Source: Levilactobacillus suantsaii (GTDB taxonomy: Bacteria > Bacillota > Bacilli > Lactobacillales > Lactobacillaceae). Taken from it: a DNA stretch of 64,000 nucleotides. Below, piece by piece: positions 172-33,995 of this stretch (position 1 is the stretch's first letter; each line of letters begins with the position of its first letter). A program made the translations under genes and the position numbers. The stretch spans positions 62,001-126,000 of the forward strand of contig NZ_QXIL01000004.1 in NCBI RefSeq assembly GCF_004115745.1. Direction: 5' to 3'. The notes below the pieces were generated by a model, which was not told where the DNA came from, searched no databases, and saw only the letters and a list, made by a program, of their open reading frames with translations.

Positions 172-209
172 ACCTAAGTCCCCCCTTAGTCGCTAAAATG
201 CATAAATCT

Positions 210-238
210 ATCATATACCAGCGCTAAGCAATTGGGAA
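210..238 (-). promoter_or_regulatory. Candidate promoter of argR
   Basis: On the minus strand TTCCCA (233-238), a 17-base spacer and TATGAT (210-215) precede argR by about 40 bases. The -35 is weak (four of six), so activity is inferred. No clear ARG box was seen overlapping it. Confidence 0.4.
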
Positions 239-260
239 GTATATTCAATTTTCTCATAAT

Positions 261-1984: not shown

Positions 1985-2225
1985 CCGTTTGGCCTCCCTG
2001 CGGCTTTTCAAATGGAACCTCCTGGTCGTTATCGTTCATCATGGTGGTCAACGTCTTTTCAGCGTCTTGCAGGGTCGTTTGCAACGTCTTACTCAACGCC
2101 ACGCCCTTTTGGAATTGGGCTAAGGCCTGTTCCAAGGGGACATCACCTTTTTCCAATTGGGTCACGATGTTTTCTAAGGTACTCAAATTTTCTTCAAAGG
2201 TTGGTTTTGGTGCTTCTTCAGTCAT
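1974..2225 (-). CDS. xseB: Exodeoxyribonuclease VII small subunit
   Basis: Small acidic helical protein of 83 residues with the family signature [20 protein letters not shown] and [15 protein letters not shown]. It binds XseA to form exonuclease VII, which degrades single-stranded DNA to oligonucleotides in repair. The start at 2223-2225 has GGAGG six bases upstream; a longer frame begins 19 codons earlier inside xseA but lacks a ribosome site. It overlaps xseA by eight bases and ispA by eleven, so expression is coupled to both. Confidence 0.95.
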
Positions 2226-3570
2226 GTTTAGCCTCCGTTGCTGGTTTAATAGTCTTGATTTCGGCTTCGGCCGTCCCGTCACTCAAGTGAATCGTGGCAG
2301 GTCCCGGCTTCAAAGCAGCCGTTTGACGAATAATCTGATCATCTTGTGTCACGTAACTGTATCCGCGGCTCATGATCTTCAACGGGCTCAAATAGTCCAA
2401 TCCGCTAGCCAGTTGGGCCACGCGATTCTCCTGCGTCGTCAAGTACCGGTGAATCTCGTTGGTCAGCCGTTCCGTCGTGACCGTGACCTGTTGTTGGTCC
2501 TGGCGCACTAATGCTAGTGGCGTTTGACTCTGTAACCGTTGGGTGACCAATTGAACGCGCTGCTGGCGCTGCTGGAGTTGTAGTTGCATCCGCTGAGTCA
2601 ACCCCTGTTGCGCGTTGTCCAGCCGCTGCACGTAGGTCTCGTATAACCGTTGTGGCTGTTGGAACACATAGCTGGTCATCAATTGGTTCAACCGTTCCTG
2701 GCGTAACTTGATGCGGTTAGCCATTGCGTTGACCAAGCGGGTCTGCTGTTGTTGGAGCTTGACCAACTCATCACTTAAGACCGGCACCGCCAGTTCAGCC
2801 GCTGCGGTCGGGGTTGCCGCCCGTACGTCAGCCACCAGATCGGCGATGGTGGTATCCGTTTCGTGGCCGACCGATGAAATCACAGGTAAGGTACTGGCCG
2901 CAATGGCCCGGGCGACCTTCTCCTCGTTGAACGGCCAGAGGTCTTCGATGGACCCCCCGCCCCGACCAATAATCAAGGTGTCAAAACTACCGTTGGCGTT
3001 AGCCCTGGTAATCTGACGCACGATGTCATCCGCCGCTTCTTGGCCCTGGACCAACGCCGGGTATAAGACAATCTGGGCGATGGGAAAACGTCGTTTGGTG
3101 GTCGTCATGATATCGCGAATCACGGCCCCACTCGGACTGGTCACCACGGCAATCCGCTTGGGAAAACGTGGTAACGCCTGCTTGGGCGCCGTGAACAGCC
3201 CTTCGCTAGCGAGTTTACGTTTCAATTGTTCATAGGCCTGGTAGAGTTGCCCCACCCCGTCTGGTTCCATGCGCTCCACGTAGACTTGATAGTTCCCACT
3301 GGGCCCATACAACGAGATACGGCCAACGACCAGGACCTTCATCCCCGTTTCGGGAGTGAACTTCAACTTTTCAAAGGCTGAGCGAAACATGATCGCGTTG
3401 ATCTTAGCGTGGTCGTCTTTCAAACTAAAGTATTGATGCGCGTGCGGCCGTAACCGGAAGTTGGAAATCTCTCCGGTCAGATAGACCTTGCCCAAATAAG
3501 GGTCCATGTCGAACTTGCGTTTTAAATATTGGGTCAACGCTGTGACCGTTAAGTAATCAGTTGTTGCCAC
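2218..3570 (-). CDS. xseA: Exodeoxyribonuclease VII large subunit
   Basis: 450-residue catalytic subunit of exonuclease VII. The N-terminal OB-fold carries [26 protein letters not shown], followed by the catalytic core with [16 protein letters not shown] and [18 protein letters not shown], then a glutamine- and arginine-rich coiled-coil region (about 270-400) that binds XseB. The start is probably the GTG at 3568-3570, because GGAGGGAACAAC stands directly before it; an ATG six codons upstream would place that site inside the gene. It overlaps folD by 14 bases. Confidence 0.94.
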
Positions 3571-4423
3571 GTTGTTCCCTCCACTCACATAAATCCACGG
3601 TCTGTTGCATCAACGTTGCAATCGTCATCGGCCCCACACCGCCAGGTACTGGGGTGATGGCCCCCGCTACGGGACTGACCGCATCAAAGTCGACGTCGCC
3701 GGTCAATTTGCCCTGAGCGTCGCGATCCATGCCCACGTCAATCACGATGGCCCCCGGCTTCACGTCGGCAGCTTTAATCAAGTGGGTAATGCCCGTCGCC
3801 ACCACCAAGACGTCGGCCGTCTTGGTCAGTGCCCGCAAATCTTGAGCGTAGCGGTGGGCGACCGTGACCACGAGATTGGCATTTAAGAGCAACGCCGCCA
3901 TCGGCCGTCCGACAATGTTACTGCGTCCAACCACCACGGCCCGCTTCCCTGCCAGTGGCTGGTGGAGGCTCTTCAGCATGGTCATAATCCCCTGTGGCGT
4001 GCAGGATACGGGGTAAGGTCCGGGAAGATTCCCGAATAATTTGCCGGTATTCAGCGGATGGAACCCGTCAACGTCCTTTTCTGGGGCAATAGCGTCAAAA
4101 ACTGCCCGCTCATCTAACCCTGCCGGGAGTGGTGATTGCACCAGGATCCCGTCGATTGTGGGATCGGCGTTGTATTCCGCCACGGCCGCCAATAATTCCG
4201 TTTGGCTGACCGTTGGTGAAAACGTCCGGACCACGGAACGAATCCCCAGTTGCCCGGCCTTCTTATGTTTATTACGAACGTAAATCGAACTTGCAGGGTC
4301 TGTCCCCACGATGATGACTGCTAGTCCGGGCGTAATCCCCCGTTGGGCTAGCTGGGCCACGCGTTGCTGGGTCTTTGCGTTCAGCTCACGGGCCAACTGT
4401 CTGCCATCAATGATGGTCGTCAT
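3557..4423 (-). CDS. folD: Bifunctional methylenetetrahydrofolate dehydrogenase / methenyl-THF cyclohydrolase
   Basis: 288-residue FolD, interconverting 5,10-methylene-THF, methenyl-THF and 10-formyl-THF for purine and formyl-methionine supply. Visible are YVRNKHKKAGQLGI (substrate site with the catalytic Tyr/Lys), QSPLPAG, the PEKDVDGFHPLN motif, the NADP loop VVVGRSNIVGRP and the C-terminal PGGVGPMTIATL. The ATG at 4421-4423 is preferred over one 12 codons upstream because GGGGGAAG precedes it. It heads the folD-xseA-xseB-ispA-tlyA-argR run, whose promoter appears to lie at about 4530. Confidence 0.96.
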   Translation of the reverse strand: MTTIIDGRQLARELNAKTQQRVAQLAQRGITPGLAVIIVGTDPASSIYVRNKHKKAGQLGIRSVVRTFSPTVSQTELLAAVAEYNADPTIDGILVQSPLPAGLDERAVFDAIAPEKDVDGFHPLNTGKLFGNLPGPYPVSCTPQGIMTMLKSLHQPLAGKRAVVVGRSNIVGRPMAALLLNANLVVTVAHRYAQDLRALTKTADVLVVATGITHLIKAADVKPGAIVIDVGMDRDAQGKLTGDVDFDAVSPVAGAITPVPGGVGPMTIATLMQQTVDLCEWREQRGNN

Positions 4424-4527
4424 GTTAACTTCCCCCGTCTCATAGTAAAGTAATTTCATCAGTGATTCTCATAAATGATCACCAATGTTGTCGGTGTCAG
4501 GTTACGGCACCCACAAAGTCATGTCTA

Positions 4528-4536
4528 ATTCTAGCA
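4528..4536 (-). promoter_or_regulatory. Candidate extended -10 promoter for the folD-xseAB-ispA operon
   Basis: The minus strand reads TGCTAGAAT (4528-4536), an extended -10 element, with only a weak -35 (TTCGTT) upstream. It would give a leader of roughly 100 bases before folD. The leader contains GGTG/CACC complementary segments but no riboswitch that I recognise. Confidence 0.45.
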
Positions 4537-4589
4537 TATTTGAACTGAAAACGAACCCGGTCGGGTGCAAGAACCCGAAAAACTCCGAA

Positions 4590-4638
4590 AAAACACAAAA
4601 CCGGCGCTTCAAGAACTCAAAGTCCTGAAGCACCGGTT
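4590..4638 (-). terminator. Rho-independent terminator after nusB
   Basis: On the minus strand ACCGGTGCTTCA pairs with TTGAAGCGCCGGT around a short loop (arms within 4600-4637) and is followed by a T-rich tract. It closes the efp-yqhY-nusB unit before folD. Confidence 0.88.
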
Positions 4639-4689
4639 AGTGATTATTTTTTTGATTGGGTGACCCTAAGACGTCACGTCAGGCACTGA

Positions 4690-5124
4690 TTACGCTTGCG
4701 CGTCGTCACTGGCCTCGTCATCTAACGTGTGGGCCAAGACCCCGTTGATGAACCGCCGCGACCGGTCATCACTAAAGTTCTTGGCTAATTCCAAGGCTTC
4801 GTTGACGGCCACTCGGTTCGGCACATCGGTGACGTGATCGATTTCGAAGAATGCCAGGCGTAAAATCACCAGGTCAGTCTTCGCAATCCGTTGCAGTTGC
4901 CAGCCGGCACTCAAGTAACGCGTAATCTCAGCGTCTAGGTCCCGTTGGTGGTCTAACACCCCGGTGACCAACGTCTGCAGATACTCGGGCACGGGAACCG
5001 TTTGGTCCGGATCATCCGTTAACACTCGTTGGTAGAGTGCCTCTTGGTCAGCGTCCGCGTTGGCATTGAGGGCGAACAGCATTTGAAAAGCCCGCTCCCG
5101 AATTTGATGTCGTGTAAGTGTCAC
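4690..5124 (-). CDS. nusB: Transcription antitermination factor NusB
   Basis: 144-residue all-helical NusB, which with S10 (NusE) binds boxA in rRNA leaders and supports antitermination. Family signatures are the N-terminal RHQIRERAFQMLFAL, the middle ITRYLSAGWQLQRIAKTDLVILRLAFFEI and VAVNEALELAKNFSDDRSRRFINGVL. The start is GTG at 5122-5124, overlapping the stop of the Asp23-like gene as GTGA; an AGGAG lies about 12 bases upstream. Pairing with yqhY is conserved in Bacilli. Confidence 0.96.
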   Translation of the reverse strand: MTLTRHQIRERAFQMLFALNANADADQEALYQRVLTDDPDQTVPVPEYLQTLVTGVLDHQRDLDAEITRYLSAGWQLQRIAKTDLVILRLAFFEIDHVTDVPNRVAVNEALELAKNFSDDRSRRFINGVLAHTLDDEASDDAQA

Positions 5125-5561
5125 GATTGCTCACTGTCTCCTTCATCTGATTGGTTGAACAGGTGATCAGGATCGACCTGTTGCGCCGTCTTTTCGGGAA
5201 TGACGCCTTCCACGTGAACGTTGACTTCACGCAAGTCAAGGTCCGTCATGAACAACAATTGTTGCTTGACGCTATCCTGAATGGCTAAGGCAACCTTGGG
5301 AACGGCGACACCGTAGTTCAGGTAAACGTAAACGTCCACAGCGAGTTCGTCGCCATCAAACGTCAATTTGACACCCTTACCGTGTTCTTTTTTGCCAAAC
5401 AGCTCCGTTACGCTGTTCGCCAAAGAACCCCGCATCCGGGCCACGCCCTCGGTCTGACTAGCCGCAATGCCGACAATGATTTCAAGAACTTGCGGCGCGA
5501 CTTCAATCTTTCCTAAGGCCGGTTCCTTGGATTCTAAAATAATATTCGTATCTTCTGCCAT
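5121..5561 (-). CDS. yqhY: Asp23/Gls24 family envelope stress protein (YqhY-like)
   Basis: 146 residues with the Asp23 family core: GKIEVAPQVLEIIVGIAASQTEGVARMRG, then DVYVYLNYGVAVPKVALAIQ and VHVEGVIPE. The C-terminus is acidic. In Bacillus subtilis the homologue YqhY sits between the acetyl-CoA carboxylase genes and nusB and affects fatty acid synthesis; here accBC is absent and efp precedes it. The exact role in lactobacilli is unknown. The ATG has AGGGAGG nine bases upstream. It is translationally coupled to nusB. Confidence 0.88.
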   Translation of the reverse strand: MAEDTNIILESKEPALGKIEVAPQVLEIIVGIAASQTEGVARMRGSLANSVTELFGKKEHGKGVKLTFDGDELAVDVYVYLNYGVAVPKVALAIQDSVKQQLLFMTDLDLREVNVHVEGVIPEKTAQQVDPDHLFNQSDEGDSEQS

Positions 5562-5608
5562 TCATTGACCCTCCCTTACAGATTAAACGTCAGTTAAGTC
5601 CGTTGCAC

Positions 5609-6169
5609 TTAGGCCCGAGAAATGTAAGTCGAGTCCTGCGTGTTGATGGATAACTTGTCGCCTTCGTTAACGAAGAAAGGCACTTGAACCACTAAGCCCG
5701 TGGTCATAGTTGCCGGCTTGGAGCCACCGGAAGCGGTGTTCCCCTTGATGCCCGGTTCCGTTGAAGCCACTTCTAAGACGACCGTGTTTGGCACTTCGAT
5801 GCCCAACACTTCGGCGTTGTACTGGATCAAATCCACGTTCATGTTTTCTTGCAAGAATGGGAGTTGATCTTTGATGGTATCGTTTGGTACCGCGATTTGT
5901 TCGTAGTTGTCCGTATCCATGAAGACCCGGCTGTCGCCATCTTCGTACAAGTATTGCATACTGCGCGTTTGGATGTCCGCCTGTTCCATCTTAGCCCCGG
6001 ACCGGAAAGTCTTTTCTTGCACGGCACCAGTCCGTAAGTTCTTCAGCTTCGTCCGCACGAATGCGCCACCCTTACCGGGTTTAACGTGCTGGAACTCCAT
6101 GATCCGCCAGATAGCGTGATCGACTTCGATGGTTAAACCATTTTTGAAATTAGCAGTTGAAATTGCCAT
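5609..6169 (-). CDS. efp: Translation elongation factor P
   Basis: 186-residue three-domain EF-P that relieves ribosome stalling at polyproline. The tip loop reads [15 protein letters not shown], with the modifiable lysine at residue 33, as in Gram-positive EF-Ps; the modifying enzyme is not in this window. The C-terminal signature [19 protein letters not shown] is intact. An AGGAGG precedes the ATG, although at a long distance (12 bases). It leads the efp-yqhY-nusB unit, with a candidate promoter just upstream. Confidence 0.97.
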
Positions 6170-6201
6170 AATGTGTCAGCCTCCTAAAAGATGTCCTCTT
6201 T

Positions 6202-6231
6202 ATAATATCAATTCTCCCCCCTAAAAAGCAA
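6202..6231 (-). promoter_or_regulatory. Candidate promoter of efp
   Basis: Minus strand TTGCTT (6226-6231), 18-base spacer, TATTAT (6202-6207). The spacer includes a G-run that can pair with a C-run just after the peptidase gene, so the region may double as a weak terminator for that gene. Confidence 0.5.
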
Positions 6232-6245
6232 GACAGGGGGTTAGT

Positions 6246-7310
6246 TTACAAAATAATTAACTCTCGCGGCACCGAGGTCAACTCCTCGTGACCACTGGGG
6301 GTCACCAGTAAGTCGTCTTCGATGCGAATCCCGCCTTGTTGCGGGAAATAGGCGCCCGGTTCTACGGTGATGACCTGGTTGGCCACCAATTTGTCTGGCC
6401 AACCAGCACCAATGTTGGGGCCCTCATGAATATCTAAGCCAATGCCGTGTCCGGTCCCGTGGATAAAGGCTTGACCGTACCCGGCCTGGGTCAGATACTC
6501 ACGCCCGATTTGGTCCAACTCTGCGCCGGTGACACCGGGTTTAACTGCCGCCTTGATCTTCTCCTGGGCGGTCTGGACGGCTCGGTACGCGGCGGTCAAC
6601 GCTGGACCCGGGTCGCCCAGCGCCACGGTCCGCGTCACGTCAGACGTGTACCCGTCCACGTAAAATCCACAGTCGATGGTCACCAAAGCGTTCTGTTCGA
6701 GGGGGTGGTCACTGGCCTGGGCGTGGGGCCAGGCACTTCGGGCCCCACTGGCCACAATGGTCGCAAAGCTCTCGCCAATCGCGCCGTGGTCTTGCATCCA
6801 GCGGGTCAGCCATAATGCCGCGGCCCGTTCCGTCATTTGCGGGCGTAGGACTTTAAACAACGCTTCTAGGCCCTGACTGGTCAAAGCCGTAGCGTGCCGT
6901 AAGGCCGCAATTTCACTGGAATCCTTGACCTGCCGTAATTGGTCGACTACGCCCGTTAAGGGGACCGGGTCGGCCAATAGGTTTTCATCTAACCAGGAAA
7001 ACTCCCGCCAACTCAACGTGTCTTCGAAGCCCAACACCGTCGCTTGGTCGGCCTGTAACACGTCGTTGACTGCTTGCAGGTAGTTTCTGGTGATGACCAG
7101 TTCAACTTGAGGCACCGTCGTCTGCAACTCCGTTTGGTAACGGGCGTCGGTGATGAAGACCACCCGTTTGGGCGTCACCAAGACGTAGCCGTCACCGGCT
7201 AACACACTAGCACCAACTAGGTAACGTTGGTTGCTGGGTGCCTGAATTAAGAAACTATCTACACTTAACGCCGGCAATGCGGCGCGTAACCGTTCGATTC
7301 TTGTGGCCAT
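6246..7310 (-). CDS. M24 family Xaa-Pro peptidase
   Basis: 354 residues: a creatinase-type N-terminal domain (about 1-125) and a pita-bread metallopeptidase domain. The five dimetal ligands are visible in order: DCGFYVDGYTSD (two Asp), GTGHGIGLDIHEGP (His), VEPGAYFP (Glu) and RIEDD (Glu). Such enzymes cleave bonds next to proline and help recycle peptides; in Firmicutes the gene upstream of efp (YqhT/PepP type) is the usual context. Whether it is an aminopeptidase P or a prolidase cannot be decided from the sequence. GGAGGGG precedes the ATG. It likely has its own promoter after the rpmA terminator. Confidence 0.92.
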   Translation of the reverse strand: MATRIERLRAALPALSVDSFLIQAPSNQRYLVGASVLAGDGYVLVTPKRVVFITDARYQTELQTTVPQVELVITRNYLQAVNDVLQADQATVLGFEDTLSWREFSWLDENLLADPVPLTGVVDQLRQVKDSSEIAALRHATALTSQGLEALFKVLRPQMTERAAALWLTRWMQDHGAIGESFATIVASGARSAWPHAQASDHPLEQNALVTIDCGFYVDGYTSDVTRTVALGDPGPALTAAYRAVQTAQEKIKAAVKPGVTGAELDQIGREYLTQAGYGQAFIHGTGHGIGLDIHEGPNIGAGWPDKLVANQVITVEPGAYFPQQGGIRIEDDLLVTPSGHEELTSVPRELIIL

Positions 7311-8396: not shown

Positions 8397-8508
8397 TGTG
8401 CACCTCCTTATAAGTTAAGACTTAGACTCGCCGAAGACAAGTGGCCGCAAAGCGACACTTAGAAACTCGTTCCGAGCGGTTGCAGCTGTGGAAGTCCACA
8501 AATACAAC
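8397..8508 (-). promoter_or_regulatory. Structured leader of the rplU operon (L21 leader type)
   Basis: The transcript upstream of rplU can form several hairpins: GTGGACTTCCAC, CTCGGAACGAG, and a stem from AAGTGTCGC with GCGGCCACTT. Position and multi-helix form match the L21 leader that occurs ahead of rplU in Bacilli. Identity is inferred by position and structure, not by covariance search. Confidence 0.65.
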
Positions 8509-14072: not shown

Positions 14073-14252
14073 AATCAGGGTCCCCTCAATCTAAGATAAG
14101 TTAAGGGTAACATAGGACTGCCGCCCGCGCAGAAAAAATGTGGCCACCGTCCACTTAAGGCCAAATGGAGTTAAATCACTAGCTATTTCACTGCCAAGCC
14201 TGCATAATGGAAGCGGATAATTGATTTGCCCACTGAAAGGAGTTCACTTAAA

Positions 14253-14429
14253 ATGAAACATTTTACCAAGGGGTTCCTCTTTGGGGTCGTGGCTACTGCC
14301 AGTGCCGTTGCCGGCGCCGTCTTCTCCTTTAAGAAAAAGGTCGTCCAACCCATCGAAGACCAAGAAGCTCGCTTTGAAGAAAACCGTAAAAAAGCCAACC
14401 GTAAGAGTCATGCCGCCCACCACGGCTAA
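14253..14429 (+). CDS. DUF3042 small membrane-associated protein
   Basis: 58 residues, with an N-terminal hydrophobic helix GFLFGVVATASAVAGAVFSF and a charged tail VVQPIEDQEARFEENRKKANRKS. This arrangement is that of the DUF3042 family found widely in lactobacilli; function unknown. The ATG at 14253 has AAAGGAG ten bases upstream; a longer frame start has no ribosome site. It is monocistronic, with a strong terminator directly after. Confidence 0.85.
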   Translation: MKHFTKGFLFGVVATASAVAGAVFSFKKKVVQPIEDQEARFEENRKKANRKSHAAHHG

Positions 14430-14455
14430 GACGTCTCACCGGCCGACCGTTACCT

Positions 14456-14494
14456 GCGTTGCTGGATGCTAATTCATCCAACAACGCTTTTTTT
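14456..14494 (+). terminator. Terminator after the DUF3042 gene
   Basis: GCGTTGCTGGATG pairs with CATCCAACAACGC and is followed by TTTTTTT. Confidence 0.92.
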
Positions 14495-14985
14495 GTCCAA
14501 AATTTGGCTCGTCACCAGTCAACTCTAACGGTGACTCCTACTGACTAGTAAGTGAAACAACCATTCCTACCAGGTGGTTCTTCCAGCAGTCGTCTACTCA
14601 TTTAGTTAATAATTGGGGTCAAGCACGACGCAGGTTCAACACCATTCTGAGAAATCGTGGCGAGTCCGTACACATCTTGCTGCTGGCGTGGTCACCACGG
14701 CCATACCCCCAGGCCGTTGGTTAGTCCTGTGACCGTTCCTTGCTTCTGACACTTACTTTTTTCTTATCTTCCCAGGAGCCCGTGCTAATGCCCGCTTAGC
14801 GGTGATTATGAATAATTCATGAATAAAGTTTGAGGACTTTTCTCATAAAACAGGGTTGAAAATGAGAATTTGATTAACTATAATCAATCACAATAAACGA
14901 TTATCAGATTAAAGCTTCATCAAAACGCTGATTACATTAGCGTTTGCCTGAAAATGAGAGATACATTAGAAAATGGGGGCTTTCC
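14495..14985. other. Intergenic region before opp, no gene seen
   Basis: About 490 bases. The first 300 show no coding pattern or RNA that I recognise, apart from a local palindrome CGTGGTCACCACG. The last 170 are AT-rich and hold the opp promoter, an inverted repeat TCTCAT/ATGAGA overlapping it, and two copies of TGAAAATGAGA (14857-14867 and 14949-14959). Confidence 0.6.
14856..14884 (+). promoter_or_regulatory. Promoter of the opp operon
   Basis: TTGAAA (14856-14861), 17-base spacer, TATAAT (14879-14884). The -35 lies within the second arm of a TTCTCAT...ATGAGAA inverted repeat, a plausible operator. It leaves a leader of about 95 bases before oppD. Confidence 0.85.
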
Positions 14986-16002
14986 ATGGAAAATGCAACG
15001 AACTTTCTGAACATCCAGGACGTCAGCACCGCCTTTAAGATTAACGGGCGCTTTTATGACGCCATCTCACACATCAACCTGCAGGTCCACCGCGATGAAA
15101 TTATGGCCATTGTGGGCGAATCCGGTTGCGGCAAGAGTACCTTGGCCACGACGATCATGGGACTCCATGACCCCGCCGAAACTAAGACTTCCGGCGTGAT
15201 TGATTTTGAAGGGACCGATTTACTGCAGCTCTCCGACGACCAGTACAATGATTACCGGGGCGCTAAGATTGGCATGATCTTCCAAGATCCTTTGTCAGCC
15301 CTTAACCCGTTAAAACGCGTGGAGGATCAAATCAGTGAGGTGATGGACTACCACTCCGATTTGTCGCGCGATGCCAAGCACGCCCGGGTCCTCGAACTTC
15401 TGGACCAAGTCGGCATCGTGGCCCCCAAACGGACCGCCCGGCAATTCCCCCACGAACTTTCCGGTGGGATGCGCCAACGGGTCATCATCGCCATCGCGAT
15501 TGCCTGCAAACCCGATTTGATTATCGCCTATGAACCGACCACCGCGCTCGATGTGACCATCCAAGCCCAGATCCTCGACGTCTTACGGGCGATTCAACAG
15601 GAGAACCACGCCGGCATCATCCTCATCACCCACGATTTAGGGGTCGTTGCCGAGACGGCCGACCGGGTCGCCGTGATGTACGCCGGACAGATTGTCGAAG
15701 AGGGTAGTGCCGAACAGATTTTTACCACCCCCCAGCACCCTTACACCCGTTCCTTACTACGGTCGATGCCCCAACGGGAAAACGAAAACGACGACCTGTA
15801 CGTGATTCAGGGCAACGTGCCCTCCCTTCAACGGATGCCCCAAGGCGGCGACCGCTTTGCCCCTCGGATTCCCTGGGTCCCGCAAAGCGCTCATGAAGCC
15901 GAACCCACCATGCACACGGTGGCGCCGGGGCATTCGGTCCGCTGCACTTGTTACAAGGTCTTCACGTTTCCCGACCAGCAGAAAGGACCGGTGACCCCAT
16001 GA
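14986..16002 (+). CDS. oppD: Oligopeptide ABC transporter ATP-binding protein OppD
   Basis: 338-residue ATPase with Walker A GESGCGKST, Q-loop IFQDPLSALNP, signature LSGGMRQRV, a Walker B of the form LIIAYEPTTALD (the canonical ADEPT is AYEPT here) and the C-terminal oligopeptide-transporter extension ending in a cluster HSVRCTCYKV. With OppF it powers import of peptides. The ATG at 14986 is preceded by GGGGG; the TTG start 14 codons earlier has no good ribosome site. First gene of oppDFBCA; stop overlaps oppF. Confidence 0.95.
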   Translation: MENATNFLNIQDVSTAFKINGRFYDAISHINLQVHRDEIMAIVGESGCGKSTLATTIMGLHDPAETKTSGVIDFEGTDLLQLSDDQYNDYRGAKIGMIFQDPLSALNPLKRVEDQISEVMDYHSDLSRDAKHARVLELLDQVGIVAPKRTARQFPHELSGGMRQRVIIAIAIACKPDLIIAYEPTTALDVTIQAQILDVLRAIQQENHAGIILITHDLGVVAETADRVAVMYAGQIVEEGSAEQIFTTPQHPYTRSLLRSMPQRENENDDLYVIQGNVPSLQRMPQGGDRFAPRIPWVPQSAHEAEPTMHTVAPGHSVRCTCYKVFTFPDQQKGPVTP

Positions 16003-16973
16003 GTTTAGTTGAAATCAAAAATCTTAAGGTCCACTACCCGATTCGGTCGGGATTCTGGAACCGCATCACCGACGAAGTCCCCGCTGTAGACGGTATCAGC
16101 TTCAACATCGAAGCCGGTGAAACTTATGGTTTGGTGGGTGAATCCGGGTCGGGCAAGTCAACGACCGGTAAATCCGTGGTGGGTCTCGAAAAGGTCACTA
16201 GCGGCCAGATTCTCTACAACGGACACGACATCACCCGCCGCAACAACCGGCGCAAGCTCGACTATAACCACGACGTTCAGATGATTTTTCAGGATTCACT
16301 CTCTAGTTTGAACCCTCGGAAACGGATTGAAGACATTATCGCCGAACCCCTGCGGAACTTTGAACATCTCAGTAAGCAAGACGAGAAACTGCGGGTCTTG
16401 CAACTTCTCGACATCGTTGGGTTAGATGCCGATGCACTGTATAAGTATCCTCACCAATTTTCAGGGGGCCAACGGCAACGGATCGGGGTCGCTCGGGCCG
16501 TGGCGACCAATCCCAAATTGATCATCGCCGATGAACCCGTGTCCGCGTTGGATTTGTCCGTGCAAGCTCAGGTACTGAACTTCATGAAAAAGATTCAGCG
16601 TGACTTCGGTATCTCCTACCTCTTCATTTCCCACGATTTAGGCGTGGTTCGCCACATGTGCACCAATTTGGCCATCATGAACCGCGGTCGCTTGGTTGAA
16701 ATTGGGACCTGTGACGATATCTATAATCACCCGCTCCATATTTACACCAAGCGTTTGCTAGCCGCGATTCCCCGCACCGACGTGTCCCAACGCGCCGCAC
16801 ACCGGGCTTCCCGGTTAGCCGTTGAGGAAATCTACCGTGAGCAGCAGGATAAGTACTACGACGATAACGGACGGGCCTATCCGCTGGTCGCCGTGTCGCC
16901 GACCCATCAGGTGGCCCTCCCACCGGATATTGCCCAGCAACTTGCCCACCAGGAAAGCGAGGCGGACGTCTAA
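15999..16973 (+). CDS. oppF: Oligopeptide ABC transporter ATP-binding protein OppF
   Basis: 324-residue ATPase paired with OppD. Walker A GESGSGKST, Q-loop MIFQDSLSSLNPR, signature FSGGQRQRIGVARA, Walker B LIIADEPVSALD, and the H-loop ISHDLGVV are all intact. The ATG overlaps the oppD stop (ATGA). Its own stop overlaps the oppB ATG by one base, so the whole operon is translationally coupled. Confidence 0.96.
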   Translation: MSLVEIKNLKVHYPIRSGFWNRITDEVPAVDGISFNIEAGETYGLVGESGSGKSTTGKSVVGLEKVTSGQILYNGHDITRRNNRRKLDYNHDVQMIFQDSLSSLNPRKRIEDIIAEPLRNFEHLSKQDEKLRVLQLLDIVGLDADALYKYPHQFSGGQRQRIGVARAVATNPKLIIADEPVSALDLSVQAQVLNFMKKIQRDFGISYLFISHDLGVVRHMCTNLAIMNRGRLVEIGTCDDIYNHPLHIYTKRLLAAIPRTDVSQRAAHRASRLAVEEIYREQQDKYYDDNGRAYPLVAVSPTHQVALPPDIAQQLAHQESEADV

Positions 16974-17932
16974 TGTGGAAAACGATTTTACGGCGGGTCC
17001 TCATCATGATCCCCGAAGTCATTATTTTAAGTATTTTAGTCTTCTTACTGGCGAAAGCCATGCCCGGTGACCCGTTTACCGGCTCGATCAACCCCAAGGC
17101 GGACCCCGCCCAGATTCACCATTTAATGAAAATCAATGGGCTGTACGACCCCTGGTACCAGCAATACTGGAACTGGGTGGTCCATCTGTTCCACGGTAAC
17201 CTGGGGAACAGCTACCAGTACCAAGAACCGGTCACCCGCTTGATTAGTAGCCGGGCGGCCAACACTCTCTGGTTAGCCTTACTGACCATGGTCTTGACCT
17301 ACGCGTTGGCGTTACCCATGGGCGTCTTTGCCGGCCGGCATGAAGGAAAGTTACCCGACACGGTTATCCGGGTCTACACCTATGTGACCTACTGCATCCC
17401 CTTCTTCGTCATCTTGGTCATCGGTATCTGGATCTTCGGCTACGTGCTGGGGTGGTTCCCCACGACCGGGTCGATTTCGGCGGACGCGACTAGCGGCTTT
17501 AAATCTATCTGGTCTCGCGCCTATCATATTCTCTTACCGGCTATTTTGGGAGCACTGTTCAGTACCGTTAACATCGTCCAGTACCTGCGTTCCGAAGTCA
17601 TCGATGCCAAACGTTCCGATTATGTGCGGACGGCCCGGTCCAAAGGGGTCCCGAACAAGGACGTTTACCGGCACCACATCTTCCGAAACTCCCTGTTACC
17701 TATCGCGGCTTTCGCGGGTTACTCCATTACCGGCTTACTGAACGGGTCGATCTTCACCGAGACCGTCTTCTCCTATCCCGGCATGGGCCTGCTCTTCGTG
17801 AACTCAATCAGCTATCGGGACTACACCGTCATCACCGCTTTGGTCTTAATTTATGGCATTTTGAATCTGTTAGGGACCCTGCTCTCAGACATCATCTTGA
17901 GTATTGTCGATCCCCGGATTCGGATTGAATAG
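16973..17932 (+). CDS. oppB: Oligopeptide ABC transporter permease OppB
   Basis: 319-residue inner-membrane permease with six predicted membrane spans. N-terminal ILRRVLIMIPEVIILSILVF is the first span, and the cytoplasmic EAA loop is visible around YVRTARSKGVPNKDVYRHHIFRNSLLP. It forms the channel with OppC. Between oppF and oppC, in standard order. Confidence 0.95.
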   Translation: MWKTILRRVLIMIPEVIILSILVFLLAKAMPGDPFTGSINPKADPAQIHHLMKINGLYDPWYQQYWNWVVHLFHGNLGNSYQYQEPVTRLISSRAANTLWLALLTMVLTYALALPMGVFAGRHEGKLPDTVIRVYTYVTYCIPFFVILVIGIWIFGYVLGWFPTTGSISADATSGFKSIWSRAYHILLPAILGALFSTVNIVQYLRSEVIDAKRSDYVRTARSKGVPNKDVYRHHIFRNSLLPIAAFAGYSITGLLNGSIFTETVFSYPGMGLLFVNSISYRDYTVITALVLIYGILNLLGTLLSDIILSIVDPRIRIE

Positions 17933-17947
17933 GAGGTCGATAACACC

Positions 17948-18898
17948 ATGGCAGAAAACTTTAACCGCAACACCAATGTCTCGGCTAACGACCTCGCCCG
18001 GCTTTCGCAAGAAGCCGAGGCTGAAGCCACGCCGTCATCGGCCCGCATCGTCTGGGACGAATTCAAGGCCGACAAACCCGCGATGGTCGCTCTAGTCATC
18101 GTGGTGGGCTTCATCCTCTTCGTGATGATTGCCAGTCTCTTTATCAACACGCCCAAAATGATGCAGACCAATATCATGGCCTACTTTGACCGCCCCGGCA
18201 CCGACGGCATGTGGCTCGGCGCCGATTCCGCCGGTCGCTCCGTCGCCAAGCAACTCATCGTGGGGTCCAGAAACTCGATTGGCATTGCTATCGGGCTGAC
18301 CGTGATCTCGTCCACCTTCGGGATCTGCTGGGGACTCATCTCCGGCTACTTCAACGGTTACATCGACTGGGGCATGCAACGGGTCTACGACTTCATGATG
18401 ATGCTACCGATGACCATGATGATCATCGTATTGGTCACCATCATCCCGCACTATAACGCCATCACTCTGACGCTGATCTTCTCCATCTTTTACTGGGAAG
18501 GCACGTCCCGGTTGATTCGTTCGCGGACCTTGGCCGAATCGGAAAAGGATTACGTGGCCGCGTCCAAGACCTCGGGAACTAGCAATTTTAAGATTATCTT
18601 TCGCGAGATCATGCCAAATATCTCGTCACTGATCATCGTTGACACCACCTTGTCCTTCGCTGAAAACATCGGGGTCGAAACCGGGCTCTCCTACCTGGGC
18701 TTTGGCTTACCGACCCAGACACCGTCTTTAGGGACCATGATTGCTAACGCCAACGACCCCAACAACATCACCCAGTACTGGTGGACTTGGCTCCCTGCGG
18801 CGTTAGAGATCATTATTCTTTGTTTATCCATTAGTTACATCGGTCAAGTTATTCGCCGGGCCGCCGACGCGTCGCAACGTCAAGGCGCTGGCGACTAA
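17948..18898 (+). CDS. oppC: Oligopeptide ABC transporter permease OppC
   Basis: 316-residue permease with a charged N-terminal tail (about 1-45), a first span VALVIVVGFILFVMIASLF, and the EAA motif YVAASKTSGTSNFKIIFREIMPN. The sequence FWLGADSAGRS-like segment (MWLGADSAGRSV) matches OppC/DppC proteins. GGAGG precedes the ATG. It is the fourth gene of oppDFBCA. Confidence 0.95.
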   Translation: MAENFNRNTNVSANDLARLSQEAEAEATPSSARIVWDEFKADKPAMVALVIVVGFILFVMIASLFINTPKMMQTNIMAYFDRPGTDGMWLGADSAGRSVAKQLIVGSRNSIGIAIGLTVISSTFGICWGLISGYFNGYIDWGMQRVYDFMMMLPMTMMIIVLVTIIPHYNAITLTLIFSIFYWEGTSRLIRSRTLAESEKDYVAASKTSGTSNFKIIFREIMPNISSLIIVDTTLSFAENIGVETGLSYLGFGLPTQTPSLGTMIANANDPNNITQYWWTWLPAALEIIILCLSISYIGQVIRRAADASQRQGAGD

Positions 18899-19032
18899 CT
18901 TCACTTCCACCCAGTTAAGGAGATGGTGCCATCCAGTTAGTGACGATATCCAGCTTCACCCAGCCCTGATTTCTTTTAGAAACTCCGACTGGTCACCCGT
19001 TCATGAGGATTTTATTTAAGGGGGAAACATAT

Positions 19033-20844
19033 ATGGTAAAAAAGAAATTGGCACTCTCGGCTATGGCCGTGCTAGCCACTTTGAGCCTGGCTGCTTGTTC
19101 CAGCAGTAGCAGTAAGAAGAGCTCATCTGGCGCCAACGACAACGCGTCCGTCAAGCTCTCCGAATCATACAACAACAAGGCGAAGAGCACGACGGCCGCT
19201 AACAACACCACGCTGAAGGTCGCCGAACCAAACGACTCGCCGTTCCAAGGGATTTCAGACCCCGTCTTGGCATCTAACGCGGAAGACTCCGACGTCTTTG
19301 CACCTGGTGGTTCAGATAGCCTCTTTAACGTCGACAAGAACTACAAGATCATCGACGGTGGGTTAGCTAACCTGCGGCTCAGCCGGAAGAACAATACGGC
19401 TACTATAACGCTGCGGAAAGACGCCAAGTGGTCGAACGGCGATCCGGTCACCGCTAAGGACGTGGAGTACCCTTATGAAGTGATTGCCAATAAGAAGACG
19501 ACGTCACAGCAGTACTCTTCTGACTATGCTCGGATCAAAGGGATGGCCGCATATCACAGTGGTAAAGCCAAGACCATCTCCGGTATCACCTTCCCAGACG
19601 GTCAAAAGGGCCGGAAAGTGGTCATCCACTACTCCAGCATCTCACCAAGCATGAAGTTCAGTGGGAACTCCTTCCTCTGGACGACCGTTGAACCTTACGA
19701 GTATATCAAGAACGTGCCAATTGCTAAGTTAGCCGCTTCCAAGCAAGTTCGGAAATCCCCAATCTTCACCGGGCCTTACAAGCTGGATAAAGTGGTCGAA
19801 GGCGAATCTACGACTTGGTCCCCGAACAAGTACTACTACGGCAAGCCGCCAAAGATCAAGCACATCAGTATCAACGTGGTTTCCTCGAACAACATCGACA
19901 AGGCTATCCAGTCCAAGAAGTATGACTTTACGGCTCCTGGTGGCGTCATGCACGGAACCGACTACAAGCAATTAAAGAACTTGAAGAATTACAAGATGGT
20001 CGGCAGTGCCGCTTTGAGTTACGACTACTTCGGCTTTAACGTCGGCCACTACGACACTAAGACAGGCAAGAACGTCATGGATAAGAACAGCAAGATGGCC
20101 AACAAGAACTTGCGGCAAGCCATGATGTACGCCTTGAACCTGGATCAAGTCACCAAGAAGTTTGGGTACGGCATGACTTGGCGGGCGAACACCCTGATTC
20201 CACCAATCTTCACGAAGTACTGGGATTCTTCCGAAAAAGGCTTCCCGTTGAACCTGAAGAAGGCTAAACAGCTTTTGAATGAAGCCGGCTACAAGAAGCG
20301 TAACGGCAGCAAGTGGCGGAGCGATCCGAATGGTAAGAAGTTGACCATCTACTTCGGCGCCATGACCGGGACCTCCGCGCAAGCCGCTGAGTACCAAGAT
20401 TACCTGCAACAATGGCACAAGATTGGCTTGAACGTTCAGTTGACCGGTGGCAAGACCATGGAAATGAACAGCTTCTACTCCACCCTGCAATCGCCAAAGC
20501 AAAGCAAGATTGACGTTTACGCCGCTGCCTGGGGGCTGTCTTCCGAACCAACGCCAACGCAACTGTACGGGGTTGAAGCCCCTTACAACATGGGTCACTT
20601 CGTTTCGAAAGAAAACACGAAGTTGATGAATGAAATGAACAGTGAGAAGGCTTGGAACGATAGCTACCGGACCAAGATCTTCAAGAAGTGGCAAGCTTAC
20701 ATGAACGAACAGGCCGCCGTGGCCCCTGGTTCCTTCGCTTACACTTGGAGTCCAGTTAACAAGCGGGTCAAAGGCTACAACATTGACCCATCCAACAACG
20801 AGTTCTGGAGCAACCTGTCGTTGACGTCAACGAAGATCCAGTAA
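19033..20844 (+). CDS. oppA: Oligopeptide-binding lipoprotein OppA
   Basis: 603-residue solute-binding protein of family 5. The signal peptide ends in the lipobox LAAC with Cys22, so it is lipid-anchored outside the membrane. A Ser/Lys linker follows, then the SBP_bac_5 fold with AKWSNGDPVTAKDVEYPYEV and ANKNLRQAMMYALNLDQVTKKF. It delivers peptides to OppBCDF. ATG at 19033 follows GGGGG; an ATG ten codons earlier is rejected because the signal peptide would be displaced. The 134-base gap from oppC holds a small hairpin GATGGTGCCATC that might tune the OppA to OppBCDF ratio. Confidence 0.95.
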   Translation: MVKKKLALSAMAVLATLSLAACSSSSSKKSSSGANDNASVKLSESYNNKAKSTTAANNTTLKVAEPNDSPFQGISDPVLASNAEDSDVFAPGGSDSLFNVDKNYKIIDGGLANLRLSRKNNTATITLRKDAKWSNGDPVTAKDVEYPYEVIANKKTTSQQYSSDYARIKGMAAYHSGKAKTISGITFPDGQKGRKVVIHYSSISPSMKFSGNSFLWTTVEPYEYIKNVPIAKLAASKQVRKSPIFTGPYKLDKVVEGESTTWSPNKYYYGKPPKIKHISINVVSSNNIDKAIQSKKYDFTAPGGVMHGTDYKQLKNLKNYKMVGSAALSYDYFGFNVGHYDTKTGKNVMDKNSKMANKNLRQAMMYALNLDQVTKKFGYGMTWRANTLIPPIFTKYWDSSEKGFPLNLKKAKQLLNEAGYKKRNGSKWRSDPNGKKLTIYFGAMTGTSAQAAEYQDYLQQWHKIGLNVQLTGGKTMEMNSFYSTLQSPKQSKIDVYAAAWGLSSEPTPTQLYGVEAPYNMGHFVSKENTKLMNEMNSEKAWNDSYRTKIFKKWQAYMNEQAAVAPGSFAYTWSPVNKRVKGYNIDPSNNEFWSNLSLTSTKIQ

Positions 20845-20892
20845 GCGTTATGCCTTAACGTTTAATCGCAAGGTCTCCTGTGAGGGACCCGC

Positions 20893-20933
20893 AAAGCCCC
20901 CGGAACACCTCTCGTCAGTGTTCCGGGGGCTTT
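20893..20933 (+). terminator. Terminator of the opp operon
   Basis: AAAGCCCCCGGAACAC pairs perfectly with GTGTTCCGGGGGCTTT. T-tract is short (three T) but the 16-base stem is very stable. Confidence 0.88.
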
Positions 20934-21042
20934 CGTGTGCGCAATAAGCCGGTACGGTGCTTAACCAGCGCCTTGAAATACTATTTCCGTCTAATTCCCC
21001 ACCGCCAAGTTAACAACCGTTAAACGGCCAATTAGAGGCCAA

Positions 21043-21084
21043 AACAGGCAGGCCCCCTCCACCTCTGGAGTTGACCTGCCTGTT
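21043..21084 (-). terminator. Terminator after the rhodanese-like gene
   Basis: AACAGGCAGG pairs with CCTGCCTGTT around a long loop; TTTTGG follows on the minus strand. Convergent with the opp terminator. Confidence 0.75.
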
Positions 21085-21087
21085 AGC

Positions 21088-21498
21088 TTAATACTTACTT
21101 TTTTTGGTTTTACCTTCCCAGCGAGCGTAACCGGTCTTCAAGATATAGATCTCCTGAAAACCCGCTTTGCCCAGGGTAATGGCTGCCCGGGTACTCAACG
21201 TCTTGCCTTGGTCGTAAAGATAGACCGGCAAGTCGGGCCGCAATTGGTTTTGCGCCGTCCGGAAGGTTGAGAACGGAATGCTGCGAGCGCCTAGGATGTG
21301 CCCCGCTTTAAAGTCCTTCTTTTCACGCAGGTCGACCACTTGGGCTTTGCGCATGCCTTCTTGAAAGGTTTTTTCATCAATCAGGGTCGCGACCCGGTTG
21401 CGCCGGATAACCGTGCTGAGTTGCCAGCCCCCCCAGATGACCAAAATCAAAATCAAGACGATGGTATAAATCGTCCATCCAGAAACTGCAATTACCAA
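21088..21498 (-). CDS. Membrane-anchored rhodanese-like protein lacking the catalytic Cys
   Basis: 136 residues: an N-terminal membrane helix (about 6-27) and a rhodanese domain with VVDLREKKDFKAGHILGARSIPF. At the position where active sulfurtransferases have Cys (usually YCRSG) this protein reads LYDQGKTLS, so the catalytic Cys is Asp; it is probably not a sulfurtransferase. The gene is the last of the rhomboid-yqgQ-glk run, as in many lactobacilli. The start is TTG at 21496-21498 with AAGGAAGG upstream. Role unknown; a scaffolding function is possible. Confidence 0.88.
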   Translation of the reverse strand: MVIAVSGWTIYTIVLILILVIWGGWQLSTVIRRNRVATLIDEKTFQEGMRKAQVVDLREKKDFKAGHILGARSIPFSTFRTAQNQLRPDLPVYLYDQGKTLSTRAAITLGKAGFQEIYILKTGYARWEGKTKKSKY

Positions 21499-29726: not shown

Positions 29727-30029
29727 TTAAAGTTCGCCATTTTCTGTATAGTCATACTTAGGACCGTCTGTCTTTTCGTCATAGTCAACCGTTAAGTCGT
29801 AACCGATAAAGAACCACTCGTCACCCTCGGTGATGTAGTAAGTTACGTCGTCTTTGGACTCGGTCACAACGGGGTCGCGGGGATTATCGTCAGGGGTCAT
29901 CCCCAAAGAAAAGCCCTGGTGGACCGGCGTCTTGCCGTAGACCTTACCGAAGAACCGGATGCCCCGGCCCGTCATGCCCATTTCTTCGCGAAACCATTTA
30001 CTAGCTGCATCCGTCACTGTAATTTTCAT
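29727..30029 (-). CDS. HesB/IscA-fold protein without cluster-binding cysteines
   Basis: 100 residues of the iron-sulphur biosynthesis fold (YneR/HesB type): MKITVTDAASKWFREEM, IRFFGKVYGKTPVHQGFSLGM, then DDVTYYITEGDEWFFIGYDLTVDYDE. There is no cysteine in the protein, so it cannot hold a cluster through the classical IscA cysteines. Such Cys-less members are common in lactobacilli and their role is unknown. The ATG follows GAGGGG. Monocistronic with a candidate promoter at 30075-30104. Confidence 0.85.
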   Translation of the reverse strand: MKITVTDAASKWFREEMGMTGRGIRFFGKVYGKTPVHQGFSLGMTPDDNPRDPVVTESKDDVTYYITEGDEWFFIGYDLTVDYDEKTDGPKYDYTENGEL

Positions 30030-30323: not shown

Positions 30324-30358
30324 CAAAAACGGTCACCCTTATTAAAAGAGTGACCGTT
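30324..30358 (-). terminator. Terminator after the rhamnosidase pseudogene
   Basis: AACGGTCACTCTTTT pairs with AAGGGTGACCGTT (one G-T) and is followed by TTTGG on the minus strand. The rest of 30105-30323 shows nothing I can name. Confidence 0.82.
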
Positions 30359-30368
30359 GCAAAAAATC

Positions 30369-33233
30369 TTATTGTGATTGGCCAAAGGACGTTGTCCCGG
30401 CTGCTAGTGTCAGTTCATAGCTGTCCGGTGCCGAGGCCTCATGACTGACCAAATTTAACCGGCGAGCATCTGCTAGCGGAAGTTTAAGGGTCGCTTGCGT
30501 ATTGACCGGAATGGTCACTTTCAGGCTGGTCAGAGCGGCGCCGTCTGATTGCCAGGCCACTTTAATGGGGCCGTAAACCGAATCCATTTCTCCCGTGACT
30601 GTCGTAATCCTGGACTCATCATTATACACCTGTCCCCGGTCAATTTTCGGCGCGATGACGATGGCGTCCTCGCCACGACTGGGAGTAACGTTGATTCCTA
30701 ACATGGTGGCATACAACCACTGAGCAATCGACCCGTAAGCATAGTGGTTATACGAGTTCATCGCGTCGGGTGAGATGCCTCGTTCTTGCGTGTAAGAGTC
30801 CCAGCGTTCCCACAGGGTCGTGGCTCCATTTTTGACCGCTAATAGCCACGAGGGATTCTGGTCACTCAAGAGTAAGTCATAAGCTTGGTCGTTTAGTCCG
30901 GCCGCACTCAGTTCGGGAAGTAACACGTTGATTCCCAAAAAGCCCACGGCCAAGGATTTTGCCGGCATCGTTGGCCGACTCGTTTGGTCGTGGTTGTCCA
31001 CGACCCGTTTCAAGGTGGCGATAGCCCGTTGCTTTTGCGTCTCGTCCGTGAATAGCTGCAATTTCAAAAACCACAGCAAACCAGTCTCCGCATCATCCAC
31101 GAATGAATACCCCTGAAATGACCGGTCCACCTGATCAGCGGTCCGTGTCAGCAAATGGAACTCTTCCGTCTCATCGTCAGCAACGTATTTTTCTTGGATT
31201 TTTGCTCGAACTAACTTAAAGAGGTGGGCATATTGTTGCTGCCCCAGATCATCTGCCACGACCCGTGCCATTTTAGTCATCAATTGGGCGGTATAGGCAC
31301 GGTAGATGAGGTTCATGAACGGTGTCGCTGCCGGCGCAAAACCTAACCAGTCACCGAATAGATGCTCATCGTAAGTCGTTGCCGTTGTCGTCAGCGGCCC
31401 AATTTGCCGCATATAAGCCGTTATCTGGGGGTAATACTGGGTCACAAAAGTTTTATCTCCCGTGAACTGATATAACCGCCACGGCAACACGATACCAATG
31501 TCCGACCACCCCGCCGCTCTTGCCTGCGCCAATTTCGGTAAAAAGGACTGCGGCATAATGATCTGGTAGGCGGAACCCACCTCGGTTTGGTTGATGACCT
31601 TTAAGTAGTGGCCTAAAAACGCCACGCTGTCAAAGCCCATTAAGCCACTTTGCGCAAAAATTTGTGCATCGGCCGTCCATCCGGCTCGTTCGGCCCGGTT
31701 GGGCGAATCAATGGGGATCGACAAGTAGTTCGACTGCTCACTAAACTGAATATTCTTAATCAATCGGTTCACAGCCGCATTATTGGTCTGTAACCAAGCC
31801 GTCTGGTGAGTCAGCGAGCTGACCGGAATCTGCTGAATAGCCTGAATCGTGACCGGTCCGTCCGTCACCACTTCGACGTAGCGGTATCCATGGAAGGTCC
31901 AGCGGGCATTGACCGTGTGGACCTTTTCGTCTTGGGTGTAGAAGACTTCTGCGGACCGGGCATCACCCCCGATTTCAGAGACCAAGTTACGATGGTGCAA
32001 CGTATTTTTCGGCCCGTCACTTCCGGTCTGCTGGACAACATCCCCCTGACCATCGTTGAGGATCTCTCCCGTGCGCACTTCAATTTTCGTCAGCGCCAAC
32101 GTATTGGCATGGAAGGTCACGGCTAACGTTGCCGCCATATTTTGGCCAAAATCGAACAATAGACGTTGTTGCCGGTCTGCTCGCCAATCTTCGTGGTGCA
32201 CATCCACCAACTGAACTGCCCCTAACGGTAGCGTTGCCTTGGAGCCGATTCGGTCTATGCGATAATTGGCGCTTGCGACCGGACTGTTCTGCTGATCCAA
32301 TAATTCATAGACCTTTGCTTCATGACTGGGGGCTAAAGTCTGCCGCACCGCCGCCTGGTCGATTGGTGGCGTCACTACCGGTTGTAACTCACCAGGAGCT
32401 AACCTAAAATCAATGGTTTCACCATCGTAAATATCGTTATCCACGACCCGGTAATCATCGTAGTAGGCCCATTTGTCGGTCTCGGCGCTGGTCACCGTTT
32501 GCTGTTGACCATCGGTGTATGTTATCACCAATTTAAAAATCAGGAGTGGTCGTTTGATCCCGTCTGTAAACAAGCTTTCGTAATTTGAAAATTGCGCGAT
32601 TCGTCCCAAAAAATAGCCCTTGCCGACAGGAATGTTGACGTGATTGTCACGTTTTAAGTCAGCCTGCACATCGTAAGCTTGGTAATTGATGCGAGTATGA
32701 TAATCCGTCCAACCAGGGTTTAGAATCTCTAAGCGTTCATCCCCGATTGCCTGTAAGTTGTGGTGATTCATCTGTACTGCGTACGCTCCTAATCCCGAAA
32801 CGTATAGGATTGCCGACGCAACGGCGCTAGGGGTCTGGTGTAACGTAAACTGCCGGGTAAAGACGGGCAAAGCCGTAGCAGGTTGAGCACTGATGAACGG
32901 AATCCCCGCCCAATCAGTGGTGGTAAAAAATCCCACCGGCGCTGACGTCACGACGTTGGCGTGATTGTCTTGCACGCTGACTTGCCAGGTATAGTGCTTT
33001 TCTGGTGCCAGCGGAAGCGCTTCAAAATAATTATTAATGGTCTGCGCACTCTGGACTTCTGGACTCCGCCAGATCTCCCGGGTCGCGTCAGCAATCACTA
33101 ATTGAAAAGCGGTTTATGTCACCGTCGCGGGGTCCGTGGACTCCCGGTGTAATTTCCAGCTAAAAGTCATTCCGGCCGTTGCGACCACGATGGGGGTCAC
33201 GGCATGGTTTAGCTGTAAGGTATCAATCTTCAT
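30369..33233 (-). pseudogene. Alpha-L-rhamnosidase (GH78) interrupted by an in-frame TAA
   Basis: From an ATG at 33231-33233 the frame reads KIDTLQLNHAVTPI... up to codon 39, then TAA at 33114-33116, then TAFQLVIADATREIW and on without further stops to 30369. The remaining 910 codons are a complete GH78 enzyme: rhamnosidase N-domains, the (alpha/alpha)6 barrel with ERAGWTADAQIFAQSGL, FGDWLGF, TLWERWDSY and MNSYNHYAYGS. The expected residue at the stop is Gln (CAA), so one C-to-T change would explain it. A GTG at 33096-33098 could restart translation, but no Shine-Dalgarno precedes it. The enzyme would release rhamnose from plant glycosides intracellularly (no signal peptide). A strong extended -10 promoter and a terminator remain, suggesting a recent loss or a sequencing artefact. 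Confidence 0.85.
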
Positions 33234-33283
33234 TTTCCAATCAACTCCAACTTACTTTCAGTTTCATGCTTCAAATGTAATCC

Positions 33284-33292
33284 ATTATAGCA
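33284..33292 (-). promoter_or_regulatory. Extended -10 promoter of the rhamnosidase gene
   Basis: The minus strand reads TGCTATAAT, a perfect TGn-extended -10, about 50 bases before the ATG at 33233. The -35 is poor. No clear cre site was seen. Confidence 0.65.
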
Positions 33293-33357
33293 TGACCGTT
33301 GGCCTAACTTTCCGCTCGACTAGACCATTGGCCATGACCGCTCCGCCAAACACTAAC

Positions 33358-33408
33358 GCAAAAAAGGTTCCCAACACCGGCATCGCTGCCCGCACTGGGA
33401 ACCTCTTT
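33358..33408 (-). terminator. Terminator after greA
   Basis: AGGTTCCCA pairs with TGGGAACCT around a GC-rich loop, followed on the minus strand by TTTTTTG. Confidence 0.85.
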
Positions 33409-33424
33409 GACGCTAAACTTATGA

Positions 33425-33901
33425 TTAATCGACTTTCAAGACTTCGACCGTCATGTCACCACCGGGCGTTTCCAGCGTGACTTTTTCGCCTACGCGGTGA
33501 CCTAATAAGCCCTTGGCAATTGGCGATTCGTTAGAAATCTTCCCCGACATCGGGTCAGCTTCGGCCGCACCCACGATGGTGTATTCTTCGGGATCTTCGT
33601 CAGGCAATTCCTTGAACGTTACCTTTTTTCCGACGGAGATTTCGTCCTTGTCGGTGTCATCGTTATCGATGATTTGGGCGTATTGGAGCATGCGTTCGAC
33701 CGTGCTGATTCGGGTCTCTAACATACTCTGTTCATCCTTGGCCGACTCGTATTCGGAGTTTTCCGATAAGTCCCCGTAGGAACGGGCAATCTTGATGCGG
33801 TCGATGACTTTCGGCCGCTTGACCGTTTTAAGTTCTTCTAATTCATTTTGTAATTTTTGTTGACCTTCTTCAGTCATTGGATACATTTTTTCTTCTGCCA
33901 C
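33425..33901 (-). CDS. greA: Transcription elongation factor GreA
   Basis: 158-residue GreA. The N-terminal coiled coil holds [21 protein letters not shown], including the acidic tip that reaches the RNA polymerase active site and stimulates transcript cleavage; the C-terminal FKBP-like domain has [21 protein letters not shown] prefer the GTG at 33899-33901 ([12 protein letters not shown]), as in other lactobacillar GreAs, with AAGGGGTGG upstream; the GTG three codons earlier falls within that site. It follows udk on the same strand. Confidence 0.94.
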
Positions 33902-33995
33902 AATGGCCACCCCTTTTTCTCACTTAGTCTGAGTTAGCGGTTTCTCCGCCACGACTTGCCGGGTCCGATTCCCGGACTTCACTGACTCCCCCATC

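Follow-up and report, generated by a model that had tools for sequence, protein, structure and literature searches.

The window analysed here (the whole stretch of 64,000 nucleotides from Levilactobacillus suantsaii) contains a minus-strand gene for a GH78 alpha-L-rhamnosidase that is interrupted by a single in-frame stop codon, and that lies between greA and a HesB-like gene. The features relevant to this gene are given below, in window coordinates and with the codons counted from the ATG at 33231-33233:

29727-30029, minus strand: gene resembling HesB/Fe-S_biosyn, on the downstream side of the rhamnosidase gene (Pfam score 24.2, slightly below the cut-off of 26.3)
30328-30358, minus strand: hairpin behind the rhamnosidase gene, likely its intrinsic terminator (from folding; absent from the pattern scan)
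30369-33233, minus strand: GH78 alpha-L-rhamnosidase gene, pseudogene candidate (954 codons plus stop, a single interruption)
30372-33113, minus strand: 914 open codons 3' of the premature stop, with the GH78 domains (ORF and Pfam)
30705-31805, minus strand: Bac_rhamnosid6H catalytic domain, codons 477-843 (Pfam)
30807-30809, minus strand: E809, aligned with E895 of 3W5M
31689-31691, minus strand: E515, aligned with E636 of 3W5M
33096-33098, minus strand: GTG, codon 46, the nearest in-frame start codon behind the stop (separated from the TAA by 15 bases; duplex energy +1.9)
33114-33116, minus strand: premature TAA at codon 40 (the three distinct lactobacillar orthologues that were aligned have CAA here)
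33117-33233, minus strand: leading fragment of 39 codons, first strands of an N-terminal Ig-like domain (weak profile match, E 0.019; structure model)
33245-33248, minus strand: GGAG, which likely serves the ATG as ribosome-binding site (sequence and duplex energy)
33284-33292, minus strand: TGCTATAAT, an extended -10-like element (by eye)
33364-33405, minus strand: hairpin behind greA, on the upstream side of the rhamnosidase gene, likely an intrinsic terminator (from folding)
33425-33910, minus strand: greA, upstream of the insertion (ORF and homologues)

Between the ATG and the normal terminal TAA (30369-30371) the frame of 954 codons contains exactly one stop, at codon 40, and a search for a frameshift within these codons found none, which bears out what the initial annotation had read from the frame: a lone TAA followed by some 910 intact GH78 codons (914 by our count). 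The fragment behind the stop matched five Pfam families above the cut-off: Ig_Rha78A_N, Bac_rhamnosid_N (codons 137-300), Bac_rhamnosid, Bac_rhamnosid6H (E 2.5e-75) and Bac_rhamnosid_C. The first of these is divided by the premature stop, with profile positions 36-101 matched after it and positions 2-30 matched before it, the latter under the cut-off. A structure of the protein was modelled with AlphaFold2, reading codon 40 as glutamine (mean pLDDT 73.5, pTM 0.78; low pLDDT of 50-58 in the first 40 residues). The top five matches of this model in a search against PDB structures were all rhamnosidases (E below 1e-48), the best by E-value being the alpha-L-rhamnosidase of Streptomyces avermitilis (3W5M/3W5N; TM-score 0.75, taken over the model), which shares the GH78 fold with the model but is intact, has a longer chain and is only 21% identical in the structural alignment. 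Counting positions along the alignment to 3W5M paired E515 with E636 and E809 with E895; both glutamates are invariant across 24 aligned sequences, and we take them to be the catalytic acid and base of GH78. By its domain set, these glutamates and the modelled fold, the gene is classified as a GH78 alpha-L-rhamnosidase gene, the activity of its product being predicted.

The promoter, ribosome site and terminator had all been described as intact in the initial annotation, and this was confirmed in part. The GGAG lies 11 bases 5' of the ATG and has a duplex energy of -6.9. Random sites within the gene have a 1% quantile of -9.4, a 5% quantile of -7.1 and a 10% quantile of -6.3, and the GGAG ranks between the last two: a decent site, not an outstanding one. 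The hairpin behind the gene (30358-30328) is strong, with -19.6 kcal/mol, a z-score of -5.5 and a U stretch following it, and that of greA reaches a z-score of -5.0; the pattern scan listed neither of them. The promoter, on the other hand, amounts to a -10-like element recognized by eye: a sigma-70 promoter scan listed no minus-strand promoter, and this includes the element at 33292-33284. The numbers of elements returned by the scans were at the level of shuffled sequence (promoter-like 4 versus 3.7, terminator-like 4 versus 4.3). The rhamnosidase gene has the look of a single-gene unit.

The unit appears to be an insertion. We compared 30 greA loci of the genus, one of which is that of the window itself (34 other genomes have greA, five of whose loci were left out). 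In all 29 other loci greA and the HesB-like gene are 82-527 bp apart, on the same strand in 27 of them, and in none is a rhamnosidase gene found in between, whereas the distance in the window is 3395 bp. About 100 bp 5' of the HesB-like gene are conserved with two relatives (G005 and G014), so that the rhamnosidase unit stands as an insertion between greA and the conserved stretch. The gene is accessory on a larger scale as well. Any match at all was found in only three of 35 genomes of the genus, and only that of the window genome is full-length, the other two being remote GH78 genes (31-40% over parts); within the family Lactobacillaceae 49 of 397 genomes match, the window's own included, and two contain close full-length relatives (G181 and G290). 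This patchy distribution suggests that the gene arrived horizontally. Its G+C content (52%) equals that of the window, versus 33% and 38% in the orthologues of C. halodurans and L. plantarum EGD-AQ4, and thus it has probably been resident in a G+C-richer background for a long time. A plasmid vehicle was sought among 194 matching plasmid records, none of which matches at an identity of at least 60%. One of them, plasmid pMP1 of Melissococcus plutonius (NZ_AP018525.1:119377-121725), has a GH78-like stretch without a listed gene, as do all three Melissococcus plasmid records shown, of which one sequence was opened; the pMP1 stretch may be a pseudogene, or else the plasmid gene table has a gap here.

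The orthologues are 47-59% identical to the window gene. The initial annotation expected a glutamine at codon 40, as CAA turned into TAA, and the codon that aligns there is indeed CAA in all three distinct lactobacillar orthologues, those of C. halodurans, L. plantarum EGD-AQ4 (whose protein is identical to that of G290) and G181; in a wider set of 100 GH78 loci, 75 of which aligned across codon 40 and which includes duplicates and remote GH78 genes, 53 loci have glutamine, 16 have another residue and 6 have a gap. The gene of C. halodurans TMW 1.2172 (L019:2884-5760; 958 aa) is the nearest counterpart, being 59% identical from end to end and having the same N-terminal start, but unlike the window gene it is intact, much lower in G+C and set among different neighbours. 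The G181 gene (G181:C1:1036436-1039162, minus strand) is 54% identical and likewise open except for a single in-frame TAA, which however stands at codon 628, where the other orthologues have TTA. Since the two stops affect different codons, the one in G181 reads as a lesion independent of that in the window, so that two of the four distinct orthologues carry a single TAA. In the tree the window gene has a branch of 0.40, comparable to that of the intact C. halodurans gene (0.27 plus 0.11 internal) and shorter than that of the intact L. plantarum EGD-AQ4 gene (0.76); the broken G181 gene has 0.43. These branch lengths, from a clade whose nodes have a support of only 54-58%, show no sign of long decay. 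Given this and the lack of a second lesion, the stop is probably young relative to the divergences between the orthologues. The ratio dN/dS would be uninformative here, because synonymous sites would saturate at such identities.

The genome contains a second rhamnoside cluster, on contig C29 (C29:1-12351, genes at 48-7262 of this stretch), with the gene order AraC-type regulator, MFS, GH78, MFS, GH78. The first GH78 gene is intact (525 aa, no Ig_Rha78A_N match), and the consequence implied in the initial annotation, a strain left without rhamnosidase, is accordingly too strong. The second is split into frames of 405 and 252 aa by a frameshift at about position 6504; its site is a short run of T, and the frameshift could in turn be a base error. 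For the AraC-type regulator no match to a DNA-binding domain was found, and its end lies within a sequence that recurs at seven places in the genome, itself included, four of which start with the first base of a contig, the picture that an insertion element would give. RhaB1 and RhaB2 of L. plantarum NCC245 are listed in a published table (PMC11901676). In gene order the C29 cluster, and not the window gene, appears to resemble the cluster of these two rhamnosidases, with the difference that here the regulator and one of the GH78 genes are broken. A homologue of the frameshifted gene in another genome (G131:C12:114401-115660) contains one in-frame TAG. A search for the RhaA isomerase returned no match in the L. 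suantsaii genome, while the control search was positive in three of 14 genomes; freed rhamnose would then probably go unused via the isomerase route.

That the TAA might be a base-call or assembly error, with CAA as the true codon and the gene intact, deserves consideration because the assembly is a draft of 70 contigs and the only genome of the species in this comparison, because the remainder of the rhamnosidase gene shows no decay, and because the frameshift in the T run on C29 would be another possible site of error. We regard it as unlikely, given that the window genes common to two relatives are uninterrupted and that several lesions are located in rhamnoside genes (the frameshifted GH78 gene and the truncated regulator on C29). 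Substitutions of C by T are, moreover, frequent as true mutations but seldom arise as consensus errors when a draft is built from short reads. The soundness of the window was judged from genes of at least 80 aa shared with G005 or G014, leaving out unshared ones such as those at 14.9-20.8 kb. Of the 61 best non-overlapping matches, 55 had a coverage of at least 0.8 and six fell below this value; only three contained a stop. In two of these, the matches from 22610 and 35843, the stop precedes the real start of the gene in the window, the match extending beyond the start site, and the third is a doubtful short ORF. A general decay of the sequence was thus not seen among these shared genes. The doubtful ORF (14103-14432) matches a G014 ORF of 119 aa at 54% identity, has one stop and no Pfam match, and is maybe not a gene.

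Two of the other possibilities raised by the initial annotation, readthrough and phase variation, left no trace in the sequence. In the case of readthrough, whether through a suppressor tRNA or through a programmed context of the stop, some full-length enzyme would be made at a low level, and it could be argued that the frame of 914 codons is still open and that one orthologue likewise carries a single TAA. The stop of that orthologue is at a different codon, however, and the stop is not conserved in the relatives. None of the 62 tRNA genes called by ARAGORN, in the stretches with the 63 Rfam tRNA hits of the 70 contigs, has a stop-reading anticodon (the initial pass of this survey scored 150 of 157 candidates), so that neither a suppressor tRNA nor a change of the code is supported. 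Around the stop the RNA is predicted to fold no better than shuffled sequence (z-score +0.97), which leaves a stimulatory structure for recoding unsupported as well. Among the stops measured with E. coli reporters, TAA allowed the least readthrough (PMC11126739), and overall we consider readthrough or programmed reassignment highly improbable. The single hit that ARAGORN did not call, a tRNA-like stretch of 58 nt (C13:14027-14084), is perhaps a tRNA remnant.

In favour of reversible switching of the gene there is nothing but the single lesion itself; a substitution within CAA is not switchable by slippage, and no visible substrate for phase variation was found. The region 32900-33424 contains no direct repeat, and its sole inverted repeat is the greA terminator; there is no invertible element at the TAA, and by eye the longest run near it has four bases (the repeat tool omits runs of one- to three-base units). 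The probability of such switching is in our view negligible.

A working enzyme could also arise by termination and reinitiation or from an internal start, at the cost of at least the beginning of the N-terminal Ig-like domain, which catalysis on this reading would not require. In its favour, the catalytic domain is intact, and the other, intact GH78 protein of the genome has no Ig_Rha78A_N match. Downstream starts were also brought up in the initial annotation, and here the outcome is divided. The GTG at codon 46 is close to the TAA but has no ribosome site, and a start at this codon would remove two and most of a third of the approximately eight Ig-like strands of the model, in which the first 40 residues are of low confidence. 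The ATG at codon 155 does have a ribosome-site duplex (-7.8) that exceeds in strength the one at the original ATG, and of the in-frame starts found up to 230 codons beyond the stop region it alone scores well, but it lies inside Bac_rhamnosid_N and a start there would cut this domain. A site of -7.8, between the 1% and 5% quantiles, is moreover to be expected by chance in a gene of such length. We consider a trimmed but working enzyme very unlikely. A more far-reaching variant, to which we give scarcely any credence, holds that the TAA allele is alive, with restarts after the 39-codon ORF that would yield a little trimmed active rhamnosidase, perhaps depending on conditions, and that the window and G181 alleles are reversible dimmers of lactobacillar rhamnoside use.

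Taken together, the data from this single assembly make it quite probable that a recent CAA to TAA nonsense mutation at codon 40 inactivated an accessory GH78 gene. The gene has the marks of a recent pseudogene: a premature stop where the relatives have a sense codon, no further lesion, and conserved sites that are kept. The very recent loss proposed in the initial annotation thus finds support in the lone stop, the CAA of the orthologues and the glutamine of the wider set. What speaks against a pseudogene is that promoter-like, ribosome-site and terminator-like elements have been kept, that a GTG follows closely behind the TAA and that there is an ATG at codon 155. The single TAA in two of the four distinct orthologues might also be taken for a pattern, although different codons are affected. 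On the mutation reading, translation would halt after 39 residues, and no enzyme, or only a trace of it, would be produced; selection on rhamnoside use may have been relaxed in the lineage. We favour such a relaxation over bad sequence because the window genes are sound, the C29 cluster is damaged, no RhaA was found and the G181 gene was broken independently. Most likely the lineage is losing rhamnoside use while one other GH78 gene is still intact, and otherwise the case looks like ordinary recent gene loss.

A literature search at topic level, with neither the gene nor the species named, found no paper on the rhamnosidase gene of the window. The locus is a clear-cut example of a lactic-acid bacterium that is probably losing an accessory glycosidase gene, and a second rhamnoside cluster of the genome is damaged too. 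The annotation of the gene matters for the choice of strains for flavonoid deglycosylation: a gene caller that starts at the GTG at 33098 would list a rhamnosidase of 909 aa, though probably no enzyme is made.

Elsewhere in the window, at 14944-20844, lies a peptide ABC transporter block (ATPase and binding protein by Pfam). The stretches of G005 and G014 that are syntenic with 14432-21091 contain nothing that matches it at an identity of at least 35%, and by this comparison it would be another lineage-specific block. The sole Rfam hit in the window at the gathering threshold is the ribosomal protein L21 leader (RF00559), at 8414-8491.
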